The position numbers and the translations under genes were made by a program. The notes below the pieces were generated by a model. That model searched no databases. It had not been told where the DNA came from and saw nothing but the letters and a program-made list of their open reading frames with translations. From Blastococcus xanthinilyticus (GTDB taxonomy: Bacteria > Actinomycetota > Actinomycetes > Mycobacteriales > Geodermatophilaceae): 64,000 bases of DNA. Where the stretch lies: NCBI RefSeq assembly GCF_008124835.1, contig NZ_VNHW01000003.1, positions 186,001 through 250,000 of the forward strand. The letters run 5' to 3'. Below are positions 936 to 4,653 of this stretch, piece after piece. Position 1 is the first letter of the stretch, and each line of letters opens with the position of its first letter.

Positions 936-2621
936 TCAGCGCGGGCCCTGGCCGCGGTCGGGTTCGGGGCGCGGCGGTTCCGCCTGCCGCTGCCGGTCCT
1001 CCGTCAGGTAGCCGCTGACCAGCTGCTCGGCGGTCGAGGCGGTGGCGGAGAAGCCGGTGATCGCGGAGACGAACGCCGGCCCGCTGAGGGTGGCGAGCTC
1101 GGTGTCCTCGAGGGCCCGGACGGTCGCCGTCCGCGGCACCGCGCGGAGCAGGGCGATCTCCCCGAAGGCGTCGCCGGCCCCGAGCCGGCGGATCTCCCGC
1201 CCGTCGACGAGCACGGCCACGCGGCCGGACTCGACGACGTAGAACCCGTCGCCCGGGTCGCCCTGCCGGAACACGTCGGTCTGCGCCGGGACGCCGACCC
1301 GGCCCAGGCGCTGCGCCAGGCCCTCGATGACGGGGACGGGCAGGAGGCGGAACATGCCGACCCGGCGCAGCAGCGTGATCCGGTCCTTCCGGACGCCGAT
1401 GTCGGCATCGATCGCCCGGAGCGCCGCCCAGCGCGCCACGACGGCCACCGGCAGGACGGCGCCGGTGGCGAGGAGCGCCCCGGTGCCGCCCAGCGCGGAC
1501 AGGACGAACGGGACGGCCAGCGAGCCCATGGCCAGAGCGAGGGAGAACACCGCCTCGGTGAGGGCGAGCACCCGCGCCAGCGTCTGGTCGGGGACCAGCC
1601 GCTGCAGCAGCGTGAACCCGGTGACGTCGACGATGGCGTTGGCCGCGCCGATGACCACGAAGGCGCCGATCGCCACGGGGCTGCCCGTCAGCAGGCCGAT
1701 CAGCACGAGCGGTGCACCCCACAGCGCGATCCCGGCACCGAACAGCGTGCCCAGCCGGGCGCTCCCCGCGGCGCCGATCGAGGCCATCGCCGCCAGGAAC
1801 CCGCCGACCCCGAAGGCCGCCCACAGGATCCCGACCCCGGGGCCGCCCAGGTCGGTGAGCTCCACGGCCACCACCACCGCCAGCACGGTGACCGCGCCCC
1901 GGACGAGGCACTGCGCGCCGCCCAGCACGATCACCTCGAGGGCGCGCGGGCGCCGGCGGAGCTCGCGCAGGCCCTCCACCACGTCGGCGACCACGCCACC
2001 CCGGCCGGTCGGCCCACCGGCCGCGGCGAGGTGCGGCGTCTCGTAGCGCAGCCGGGCGGCGAGTCCGCCGGCCAGCCCGGCGAGCAGGGCCACCGCGGCG
2101 AACGCGGCGGCCGGGTCGTAGGCCGCGAGCAGTGCGGCCGCGGCGAGCGGGCCGACGAGCGCGGCGGCCCCGTCGAGGATGGCCCGGACGGCGTTCACGC
2201 CGGTGAGCTCCTCCGGGGTGGTGCACAGCGTGGGGAACAGGGCGGCGAGCACCGGCCGGTAGGCGGCATGGCAGACCGTCGAGAGGGTGAGCAGCGCGTA
2301 CACCACCGCCGACTGGTCCACGGCGACCGCCGCCCCCGCCGCGGTGGCCGCCCGGAGCACGCAGGCGGCGACGAGCAACTGGCGGCGCGAGACCCGGTCG
2401 GCCAGCACGCCCAGCCAGGGGAGCGCGACCGTCGCCGGCAGCACGCGCAGGAACCCGACCAGACCCACCCCGGCCGCGCCGTCCTGGTCGAACGCGTACA
2501 CCGTCATCGCCGAGAGGAAGAGGAACTCGCCCGTCCAGGCGGCCAGCGACGACAACTGCGCGAGGCGCAGGTTCCGGTTGCCGGTCACCGACGCCCAGGC
2601 CTCGCGGTACGAGCCCGCCAC
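936..2621 (-). CDS. MFS transporter with C-terminal cyclic nucleotide-binding domain
   Basis: The product is about 561 residues. Residues ~1-410 are a hydrophobic MFS body of the EntS-like (MFS_3) type, with many membrane helices and a short loop GVLADRVSRRQLL between early helices. After a charged linker, residues ~425-540 form a CAP_ED/cNMP-binding domain: DVFRQGDPGDGFYVVESG, then a phosphate-binding cassette FGEIALLRAVPRTATV that keeps the Glu and Arg expected for binding a cyclic phosphate. I chose the GTG at 2621 because the frame upstream overlaps the divergent PIG-L gene and is not protein-like. Known family logic suggests an exporter gated or tuned by a cyclic nucleotide; the cargo is unknown. 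The neighbouring PIG-L protein carries a related domain. Confidence 0.85.
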   Translation of the reverse strand: MAGSYREAWASVTGNRNLRLAQLSSLAAWTGEFLFLSAMTVYAFDQDGAAGVGLVGFLRVLPATVALPWLGVLADRVSRRQLLVAACVLRAATAAGAAVAVDQSAVVYALLTLSTVCHAAYRPVLAALFPTLCTTPEELTGVNAVRAILDGAAALVGPLAAAALLAAYDPAAAFAAVALLAGLAGGLAARLRYETPHLAAAGGPTGRGGVVADVVEGLRELRRRPRALEVIVLGGAQCLVRGAVTVLAVVVAVELTDLGGPGVGILWAAFGVGGFLAAMASIGAAGSARLGTLFGAGIALWGAPLVLIGLLTGSPVAIGAFVVIGAANAIVDVTGFTLLQRLVPDQTLARVLALTEAVFSLALAMGSLAVPFVLSALGGTGALLATGAVLPVAVVARWAALRAIDADIGVRKDRITLLRRVGMFRLLPVPVIEGLAQRLGRVGVPAQTDVFRQGDPGDGFYVVESGRVAVLVDGREIRRLGAGDAFGEIALLRAVPRTATVRALEDTELATLSGPAFVSAITGFSATASTAEQLVSGYLTEDRQRQAEPPRPEPDRGQGPR

Positions 2622-2784
2622 GGCGCGGACGCTAGCAGCGATGCCGGGCCGTGAGGGCCGGCTGCGCCGCGGCCGCTGCTGGTGACCTGCCCGGCGAGGC
2701 GGTACCGTGCCGAACCCCGGCCGGCCGTCGACAGCTCCACCCCGCGCAGCCGGCGGCAGGATCGACGGGGATGGGGAAGCGCAC

Positions 2785-3945
2785 ATGTCTGAGGACCCGA
2801 TCGGGCGGCCGCCGCGCCTGCTGGGCATCTTCGCCCACCCGGACGACGAGACGATCTGCGCCGGCGGGACGCTCGCCAAGTACGCGAGCACCGGCGCCGA
2901 AGTCAGCGTGGTCGCGCTCACGAGGGGCGGGGCCGGGCAGATCAGGGACGCCGCCGTCGCGACCCGGGCCACCCTGACCGCGGTCCGGGAGCGCGAGCTC
3001 GCCGCGGCCGGCGAGGCGCTCGGGCTGACCCGGACCAGGTGTCTCGACCATCTGGACGGCGGCCTCGCCGACGTCGACGGCGAGAGCCTGATCGCGCAGG
3101 TGTCGGAGCTGATCACGGAGTTCGATCCCGACGTGGTGATCACGTTCGGGGCCGACGGGTTCTCCGGTCACCCCGACCACGTGGCCGTGGGCGCTGCGGT
3201 CACCGCGGCCTGCTACCGGCTGCGACCGGCGACCTCCCCGCGGCTGTTCCACTGCCACCTGCCGCGGAGCCGGATGCTGCTCCGCGACCGCCTGGCCGCC
3301 TGGGTGGTCGAGCTGACGACCCGGTTCAAGGGCAGCCGGGACTTCGTGCGCGCCCTGTCGGTCTTCTCGCGCGAGACGGCGGGGCTGGGGTACGCGGCCG
3401 ACTTCATCGAGGTCGAGTGGTTCCCGGCCGGCTCCTACCTCATCGAGCAGGGGGAACAGGCGACGACGATGCACTTCCTGCTCTCCGGGACCGTGGAGAT
3501 CCGGCGGGAGGACGCCCACGGCCACGTGCAGGTGGTCGACCGGTCCGGCCCCGGTGAGTTCATCGGGGAGGAGGGCATCGCCACCGGCCGGCCGCGCAAC
3601 GCGCACGTGGTGGCCGTCGACGACGTCACCAGCCTGACGTTCCTGGCTGCGGAGCCCTTCTCCGCCGCCGACGGGCAGCGGGATCCGGCGCTCCCGCTGC
3701 TGACCCGGACGCTGCCCTCGGGGGACCGGGTCGACGCCCGGGTGAGCACCTGCATCGACGTCTCGGACTTCGTCGGGCACAAGATCCGGGCGACGGCGGC
3801 GCACCGGTCCCAGTACCCGATCGACCCGGCGATGTTCCCCGACTCGATCCTCCGCGAGATGTTCGGCGTCGAGTACTTCATCCAGGTGCTGCCGGAACGC
3901 GCGCTGGACGCGTCCCTCCTCGGCGACGGCGCCTCAGGTCGCTGA
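2785..3945 (+). CDS. PIG-L (LmbE-like) deacetylase with an inserted cyclic nucleotide-binding domain
   Basis: The product is 386 residues. The PIG-L zinc motif AHPDDE is near residue 17 and the HPDH motif near residue 132, as in N-acetylglucosaminyl (MshB/LmbE-like) deacetylases. Residues ~205-300 are a CAP_ED-like domain (SYLIEQGEQATTMHFLLSG, then FIGEEGIATGRPRNAHV with the Glu and Arg of a phosphate-binding cassette). The end of the PIG-L fold follows it (DFVGHKIRATAAHRSQYP), so the sensory domain interrupts the enzyme. The ATG at 2785 is preceded by a GGGGA ribosome site. The gene is divergent from the MFS-cNMP fusion and overlaps the next gene tail-to-tail by 12 nt. Deacetylation of a small N-acetyl sugar conjugate under nucleotide control is inferred. 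Confidence 0.85.
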   Translation: MSEDPIGRPPRLLGIFAHPDDETICAGGTLAKYASTGAEVSVVALTRGGAGQIRDAAVATRATLTAVRERELAAAGEALGLTRTRCLDHLDGGLADVDGESLIAQVSELITEFDPDVVITFGADGFSGHPDHVAVGAAVTAACYRLRPATSPRLFHCHLPRSRMLLRDRLAAWVVELTTRFKGSRDFVRALSVFSRETAGLGYAADFIEVEWFPAGSYLIEQGEQATTMHFLLSGTVEIRREDAHGHVQVVDRSGPGEFIGEEGIATGRPRNAHVVAVDDVTSLTFLAAEPFSAADGQRDPALPLLTRTLPSGDRVDARVSTCIDVSDFVGHKIRATAAHRSQYPIDPAMFPDSILREMFGVEYFIQVLPERALDASLLGDGASGR

Positions 3946-4653
3946 GGCCAGCGCCCGAGACCGTCGGCGGGGGAGGACGTGGGGAAGGCCCCGGCCCACC
4001 ATGTCGAAGGTGGCACCGATGCGCAGGAGCAGCGACGGGCCCGGCAGGTCGGCGAGGGGTGCGGCGATGTCCTCGACGTCGATGTAGAAGCTCTGCACGG
4101 GGCCGATGCCCTCGAGGTCCTGGCCGATCTCGTGGGCGACCAGCTCGGCGGGGGCGGCGCCGCCGTTGCGCCAGAGGTCGTCGGTGACGAGCAGGTACTC
4201 CGGCACCGTCACGGGGTTCTTCAGCAGGCGGTGGACGTAGATGACGTCCATGCCGACGAGCTTCTTGCGGCGCCGGATCGTCTGGGTGGCGACGTCCCCG
4301 ACGTGCGCCACGAACTTCAGCTTCAGGGCGCCGGTCTTCGTGCAGCTCCCGCAGGGGCACATGTTGAGCTCGATCAGCCGGCGCTGCGCGTGGAAGGCGC
4401 GGTGCATGGCGACGGCGGCACCGGTGGCGGCGGAGAGGACCGCTGCGCCATCCAGGCCCTCGGCGTCGCGGGAGAGGAAGGCCGCATCGCCCTCGATCTC
4501 GATGAGGTCGAAGTCCCGTGCCGCGCCGACGATCTTGTCGAGCAGGCGTCTGGTCGCCGCCTCCGCGTGCCCCAGCATGCTGCGGTGGAACTGCATGTAG
4601 TCCGTGTAGCCGCCGATGTCGGCGATCAGGAGCAGCGCCCGCCGGGTCGTCAT
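3934..4653 (-). CDS. DUF2652 protein, class III nucleotide cyclase-like
   Basis: The product is 239 residues from the ATG at 4653. It opens with LLIADIGGYTDYMQFH and later has IEIEGDAAFLS; Asp12 and Asp56 are 44 residues apart, the same spacing as the two metal-binding Asp of class III adenylate cyclases. A Cys cluster CPCGSC (~residue 96) follows, then LKFVAHVGDVA, which matches the strand after the cyclase core. The family is annotated DUF2652 and its catalytic activity is not established. Its position beside two proteins with cNMP-binding domains makes a signalling role attractive, but residues fixing adenine or guanine specificity could not be assigned by eye. Confidence 0.8.
   Translation of the reverse strand: MTTRRALLLIADIGGYTDYMQFHRSMLGHAEAATRRLLDKIVGAARDFDLIEIEGDAAFLSRDAEGLDGAAVLSAATGAAVAMHRAFHAQRRLIELNMCPCGSCTKTGALKLKFVAHVGDVATQTIRRRKKLVGMDVIYVHRLLKNPVTVPEYLLVTDDLWRNGGAAPAELVAHEIGQDLEGIGPVQSFYIDVEDIAAPLADLPGPSLLLRIGATFDMVGRGLPHVLPRRRSRALASAT

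Follow-up and report, generated by a model that had tools for sequence, protein, structure and literature searches.

Genes of the locus

The window analysed here is a 64,000-nucleotide stretch of the 4.6 Mb genome of Blastococcus xanthinilyticus (C3:186001-250000), and near its beginning, between positions 936 and 4653, three adjacent genes encode a transporter and a deacetylase, each carrying a domain for binding cyclic nucleoside monophosphates (cNMP), and a protein of the DUF2652 family with the predicted fold of class III nucleotide cyclases. The original prediction, made from the DNA alone, had located these genes and proposed that the DUF2652 protein makes a cyclic nucleotide controlling the two others. 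We confirmed all three genes at those positions, with Pfam identities that all exceed the curated cut-offs.

The transporter gene (936..2621, minus strand, GTG start) encodes a protein of 561 residues from the major facilitator superfamily (MFS), which matches MFS_1 with 93.5 bits and, at its C-terminus, cNMP_binding (the CAP_ED domain) with 73.3 bits over residues 444-520 (1062..1292, minus strand); the Pfam scan gave no patatin match. A divergent intergenic region of 163 bases (2622..2784) separates it from the deacetylase gene (2785..3945, plus strand, ATG start). The 386-residue product of the latter matches the PIG-L/LmbE family with 115.3 bits over residues 15-143, a core (2827..3213) with the motifs AHPDD (from residue 17) and GHPDH (from residue 128), and then cNMP_binding with 65.3 bits over residues 211-285 (3415..3639). 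Past this domain the PIG-L fold is predicted, by profile match and structure comparison, to resume in a C-terminal segment (3706..3900) with AAHRSQ from residue 338. The convergent DUF2652 gene (3934..4653, minus strand) overlaps the 3' end of the deacetylase gene by 12 bases and encodes 239 residues, of which residues 36-153 (4195..4548, minus strand) match PF10851 with 130.9 bits against a cut-off of 22.1; this match includes D56, the pair E52/K131, a CxCxxC motif (residues 99-104) and R142. We also looked for a CRP operator in the divergent promoter, and found no CRP-like palindrome at two mismatches there; the whole window has 5 two-mismatch sites against 11.4 expected.

Both cNMP domains (PF00027) had been claimed to keep the Glu and Arg of the phosphate-binding cassette, and they do: E488 and R497 in the transporter (G487-E488 ... 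R497-T498-A), E262 and R271 in the deacetylase (G261-E262 ... R271-N272-A). A search of the 4.6 Mb genome at E 0.001 gave four cNMP_binding domains and a single DUF2652. Two of the four domains lie at most 3.5 kb from DUF2652, for which random placement gives a chance of about 1e-5 with the distance chosen post hoc, so that the clustering is not a matter of chance. Of the two other domains, one belongs to a CRP-like protein and one to a long open frame.

The DUF2652 protein and its predicted cyclase fold

The AlphaFold2 model of the DUF2652 protein, built from 48 sequences, reached a mean predicted local distance difference test (pLDDT) score of 91.3. In structure comparison it comes closest to class III cyclases: the adenylyl cyclase CyaC (Z 19.5, 183 residues, 2.4 Å) and the guanylyl cyclase Cya2 (Z 19.0, 182 residues aligned), where Z, here and for the deacetylase, re-ranks only Foldseek's own matches. 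In this high-confidence model, the fold is that of class III cyclases. In 2016 the family was described as cyclase-like from its sequences (Ramakrishnan et al., PMC4886424), and it has a table entry in PMC12828279; in the accessible literature, a search on DUF2652 and on Rv2561 with cyclase returned no report of measured activity.

To the window protein we added the sequences of 80 named loci (L086-L165), the best 80 of 540 DUF2652 matches. Throughout these 81 sequences D12, E54, D56, C99, C101, C104, K113, H117, H141, R142 and K145 are unchanged. The 44-residue spacing of Asp12 and Asp56, from which the original prediction had argued, was confirmed, and a loss of these metal residues in homologues was looked for and not seen. 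D12 and D56 pair up with the canonical Asp pair in an hhalign alignment that is itself non-significant; R142 was equated with the transition-state Arg through motif spacing and PMC4886424. Both metal aspartates and this Arg are thus present in 81/81.

Within the cyclase fold, the invariant CxCxxC (81/81) was seen in none of the three canonical cyclases that were aligned, and could bind metal or sense thiols. In 9 of 11 distant loci from the phylum sample (L075-L082, L085), the open frame extends at least 150 residues past the DUF2652 match, and PMC4886424 mentions one fusion of DUF2652 with a polyketide cyclase.

The nested deacetylase and the binding cassettes

The deacetylase has the PIG-L (PF02585) fold and zinc-site motifs, and among 12 sequences reaching down to 45% identity there is no variation at AHPDD, H129, D131, H132, H340, R341 and Q343. 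When residues 308-372 were turned into a profile, it matched the C-terminal portion of generic PIG-L proteins (best E 4.5e-9; E < 1e-3 in 12 of 21 open reading frames (ORFs), weak or none in the other 9), where a short gap separates this portion from the preceding core. The structural model, of moderate quality (mean pLDDT 69.6), aligns with MshB over residues 4..370 (Z 23.0) and with CRP over residues 209..287 (Z 13.4), which places the receptor domain inside the enzyme fold: as modelled, the PIG-L fold encloses the cNMP domain, which is not appended to its end. Because it is inserted between the PIG-L core and the C-terminal segment, nucleotide binding could switch catalysis allosterically. 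No known substrate class could be assigned by equivalog models, since the protein lies below the cut-offs of MshB, Mca, BshB1 and BshB2 (108 of 195 bits for BshB2).

The cassettes are also kept in close homologues, as the original prediction needed: Gly-Glu and Arg are found in 33/33 transporters, and in the 12 deacetylases Arg is present in all and Glu in 11, with Gln in L092. Directly after the cassette Arg, the transporters have Thr where the deacetylases have Asn.

In 6 of 45 chosen genomes, a cysteine-synthase-like pyridoxal phosphate enzyme (PF00291) and a stand-alone cNMP-binding protein stand beside the deacetylase (L089 10733-12338; also L090, L099, L048, L052 and L056). All six have the deacetylase fusion. 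The enzyme scores 213 bits against cysKM, below the cut-off of 344, and is absent from the window genome at E 1e-60. This neighbour hints at thiol or amino-acid metabolism.

Conservation and co-occurrence of the three genes

The clade of the window was defined as the 36 named loci L086-L120 and L122, from Blastococcus, Geodermatophilus, Kribbella, Agromyces, Microbacterium, Nocardioides, Cellulomonas, Microlunatus, Rhodococcoides and other genera. The transporter is found in 33 of these loci (in L092 just as a piece, cut by the contig end); in 24 it is co-directional with DUF2652 and upstream of it, directly so in 23, the deacetylase lying between in L094. The deacetylase is found in 11 loci and elsewhere in one more genome (L110; 34 of the 36 genomes were searched). 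At least one of the two partners accompanies DUF2652 in 35/36 loci, and the sole partnerless locus, L107, has just ~150 bases upstream. In L089 and L090 the deacetylase is accompanied by another cNMP ORF, and the locus lacks a transporter; the order transporter, DUF2652, deacetylase on one strand occurs in Kribbella sp. VKM Ac-2568 (L099) and Rhodococcoides trifolii (L114). No other family exceeds 7 of the 36 loci, in a search that kept 503 of 3684 ORFs and whose codon-position filter retained the DUF2652 gene itself in just 32 loci and the transporter in 29. The transporter tree departs in places from the DUF2652 tree, L094 combining a window-type DUF2652 with an Agromyces/Kribbella-type transporter, while the transporters of L095 and L118 are very divergent, on long branches of unsure placement. 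This suggests, from the trees, that DUF2652 has been paired anew with different transporters, which would speak for a functional link.

The co-occurrence holds in genome samples as well. In the order sample (n=249), DUF2652 was found in 16 genomes, the full-length deacetylase fusion in 9 and the transporter (E 1e-60) in 9, and all three genes in the same 8, so that the expected company outside this genome was indeed observed; Fisher values range from 3e-10 to 2e-13 when genomes are treated as independent, which they are not. Three of these 8 genomes have one gene on another contig, the deacetylase in G048 and G225 and the transporter in G140; in part of the genomes, then, the genes occur together but are not linked. 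The transporters of G140, G225 and G124 are just 42-45% identical to that of the window. The ninth genome with the deacetylase, G134 (82% complete), has neither other gene at the thresholds used, and the ninth transporter genome (G100) has copies only 35-37% identical. The other eight DUF2652 genomes all belong to one genus (g15 of family f8), with neither partner at these thresholds, and of the 9 genomes sampled from another genus (g4), 5 have the complete set and 4 lack all three genes. In the class sample (n=394), DUF2652 was found in 12 genomes, the transporter in 11 and both in 4, these being all of its DUF2652 genomes outside f8; the two genes are close in all four and adjacent in three, from which the window differs by the deacetylase lying between them. 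In the phylum sample, where DUF2652 was the sole gene searched, it was found in 13/346.

The surroundings of transporters lacking DUF2652 were inspected in 8 sampled genomes (7 from the class sample, and G100). At least two of them, G826 and G887, have a canonical cyclase (PF00211 with AAA_16) at one gene's distance from a transporter-cNMP gene; this is a lower bound because only suspicious neighbours were run against Pfam, and no cyclase motif was seen around the transporters of the other six. A canonical cyclase can thus occupy the same slot as DUF2652. At L195 (5791-17589), a canonical class III cyclase-AAA protein is flanked by two MFS-cNMP genes, possibly a parallel module with an ordinary cyclase.

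The scanned neighbours of the three genes in the window are a luciferase-like monooxygenase, a photolyase-related protein, an aldehyde dehydrogenase and an NAD-binding protein. The photolyase-related gene (DPRP, PF04244; 4702-6339, plus strand) adjoins DUF2652.

Predicted nucleotide preference

The base-contact positions were assigned through their spacing from D56 and R142 and the published structure-based alignment (PMC4886424), which gives the pair Glu52/Lys131 in the window. The clade has E52 in 37/37 and K131 in 36/37, and outside it K52 and E131 are each found in 39/44. Both pairs are described in PMC4886424, where Glu/Lys proteins are predicted guanylyl cyclases, the Modestobacter marinus protein I4EWW4 of its Table 1 among them; in the cyclase Ma1120, changing Lys and Asp to guanylyl-cyclase residues moved activity from ATP to GTP (PMC4215837). 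Because of the Glu52/Lys131 pair, the product of the DUF2652 protein is, on sequence grounds, more likely to derive from GTP than from ATP.

Two further markers were tried and given up. The Glu/Lys pair does not mark linkage to cNMP genes, for L123, L124 and L128 (Glu/Lys) and L121 (Glu/Arg) lie outside the clade and have no cNMP ORF in their available flanks. A Thr after the cassette Arg is of the cyclic GMP (cGMP) type, and R-T-A is found in 33/33 transporters; it also occurs in the CRP-like protein of the window genome and in transporters without DUF2652, of which some neighbour Lys-type canonical cyclases. The residue pair thus appears to tip the balance towards GTP without independent support from the receptor side.

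Interpretation and alternative explanations

The three genes form a real, conserved module, from whose gene content, predicted folds, residue conservation, co-occurrence and adjacency we infer a pathway: its catalysis, the identity of the nucleotide, the binding, the gating and the substrates. In the explanation that we favour, with a probability of roughly 0.6, DUF2652 is an active cyclase that feeds the cNMP domains of the transporter and the deacetylase. With its class III fold, metal Asp pair and Arg, it would produce a cyclic purine mononucleotide, which would bind the domain at the C-terminus of the transporter and gate flux, and would bind the nested domain of the deacetylase as an allosteric switch of catalysis. 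A more specific version is possible but doubtful: an actinobacterial cGMP pathway, derived from GTP and set apart from the cyclic AMP (cAMP) circuit of the host, in which a DUF2652 cyclase lacking the Asn and bearing Glu/Lys, its CxCxxC perhaps sensing metal or thiol, gates the transporter and the nested-domain deacetylase and is tied in some genomes to thiol metabolism.

Several findings weigh against an active cyclase feeding the two receptors. Concerning the enzyme, the position of the transition-state Asn is Ile138 in the window protein (Ile in 80/81, Val in 1/81), so that of the cyclase-like character claimed by the original prediction the predicted fold, the metal Asp residues and the Arg stood, and the canonical Asn proved to be missing family-wide. 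The kinship with class III cyclases is visible only in fold comparison, because phmmer, profile search and hhalign (probability 0.5%) all failed to link the sequences; the window protein has no PF00211 match, PF10851 being its only one at E 0.1. Concerning the module, the clade is one branch (support 99/99 in a tree built from 37 selected sequences, of which 18 belong to the clade, window protein included), and the Glu/Lys change therefore counts as one event. In the distant DUF2652 group, a cNMP-binding ORF (E 1e-3) was found in the available flanks of 0/44 loci, with one at E 0.014 and with 12 of the 44 loci shorter than 11.5 kb, which makes the pairing specific to the clade; the neighbours of M. 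tuberculosis Rv2561, the cNMP-binding Rv2564 and Rv2565 listed in PMC4886424, stand counter to this count, M. tuberculosis lying outside the set of loci. The deacetylase is an optional part (12/36 loci or genomes), the transporter occurs without DUF2652 in 7/11 class-sample genomes, and the order sample, the class sample and the named loci overlap in assemblies (e.g., L086/G237, L089/G140, L110/G225). Concerning the nucleotide, R-T-A is no argument for cGMP, being also present in DUF2652-free transporters and the CRP-like protein. Finally, the host has a canonical class III cyclase (L180, with K/D and N/R residues) together with the CRP-like protein (scoring 109 bits along its length against the CRP model, whose cut-off is 266), so that cAMP could feed the same cNMP domains; the module either shares this cAMP circuit or uses another nucleotide.

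Two of the alternatives involve cAMP. That DUF2652 is an active adenylyl cyclase forming a second cAMP circuit overlaps the favoured explanation in all but the nucleotide, and we consider it unlikely. The usual product of class III cyclases in actinobacteria is cAMP, and the R-T-A motif, shared by the CRP-like protein and by cNMP domains in the vicinity of Lys-type canonical cyclases, would suit it, but Glu52 occupies the adenine-contacting Lys position throughout the clade and the published assignments of Glu/Lys proteins, Modestobacter marinus included, are to guanylyl cyclases (PMC4886424). Distinctly unlikely, in our view, is a dead cyclase homologue serving as a sensor of nucleotide or, through CxCxxC, of metal, with the cNMP domains reading cAMP from the host cyclase. 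Such a protein would have no need of a metal Asp pair and an Arg that are invariant in 81/81, and its close linkage to cNMP-binding genes in 35/36 loci argues the same way; the replaced Asn and the CxCxxC unseen in the three aligned canonical cyclases favour it, as do the host cyclase and the CRP-like protein, yet the Asn is also replaced in the active cyclase Rv1900c (PMC4886424).

An anti-phage role was considered as well. Pycsar systems combine a class III cyclase with cNMP-domain effectors, and PADLOC models for Pycsar match both cNMP domains of the window. These matches span the cNMP domain only, however, and for DUF2652 PADLOC gives no match at E 0.01; the partners are a transporter, a deacetylase and, in 6 genomes, the cysteine-synthase-like enzyme, and the four scanned neighbours are of metabolic or repair type (no wider search for defence genes was made). 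We regard an infection-triggered cyclase with toxic effectors as very improbable. The favoured pathway has a practical side: the clade supplies candidate receptors next to the DUF2652 gene, mostly in named soil and environmental strains, which makes the question of the DUF2652 cyclase and its nucleotide directly testable.

Comparison with known systems

A cNMP domain nested in a metabolic deacetylase would be an unusual wiring of a second messenger to metabolism. The zinc deacetylases MshB, BshB and LmbE have the fold and zinc-site motifs in common with the window protein, in which the fold is interrupted by the cNMP domain. The mycobacterial Pat is a cAMP-gated acetyltransferase with its domains in series; it likewise places a cNMP domain on an acyl-handling enzyme, in series on an acetyltransferase in one case and nested in a deacetylase in the other, and its model NF058543 (NCBIfam) was matched through the cNMP domain only. 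A literature search covering few subscription journals returned neither a nested PIG-L/cNMP (or LmbE with cNMP) protein nor the pairing of DUF2652 with MFS-cNMP.

For the transporter, the closest proteins are mycobacterial MFS-cNMP(-patatin) proteins such as Rv3239c and Rv3728: the MFS and cNMP domains are common to both, whereas the window protein has no patatin and pairs with DUF2652. At L199 (150-3518), MFS, cNMP-binding and patatin domains are joined in one protein of 1123 residues, and two further ORFs with cNMP domains, one of them matched by the transporter query, adjoin this gene.

Bacterial cGMP pathways are called "poorly understood" in PMC3770947. The Xanthomonas campestris pathway XC_0250/XC_0249 described there likewise links a class III cyclase gene to the gene of a cNMP-enzyme fusion, with a GGDEF effector and demonstrated activity, whereas the putative effectors in the window are a transporter and a deacetylase known from their genes. 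The DUF2652 proteins of Ramakrishnan et al. (PMC4886424) share the Pfam family, the fold, the Asp pair, the Arg without Asn and the Glu/Lys pair with that of the window; their activities are predictions, and the pairing with MFS-cNMP or PIG-L-cNMP genes across the clade is not described there, the main text naming no transporter, deacetylase or operon. Together, the linkage of class III cyclases to cNMP effectors and the idea of a DUF2652 cyclase are already known; what the present analysis adds is a larger set of DUF2652 proteins and their link to the partner genes.

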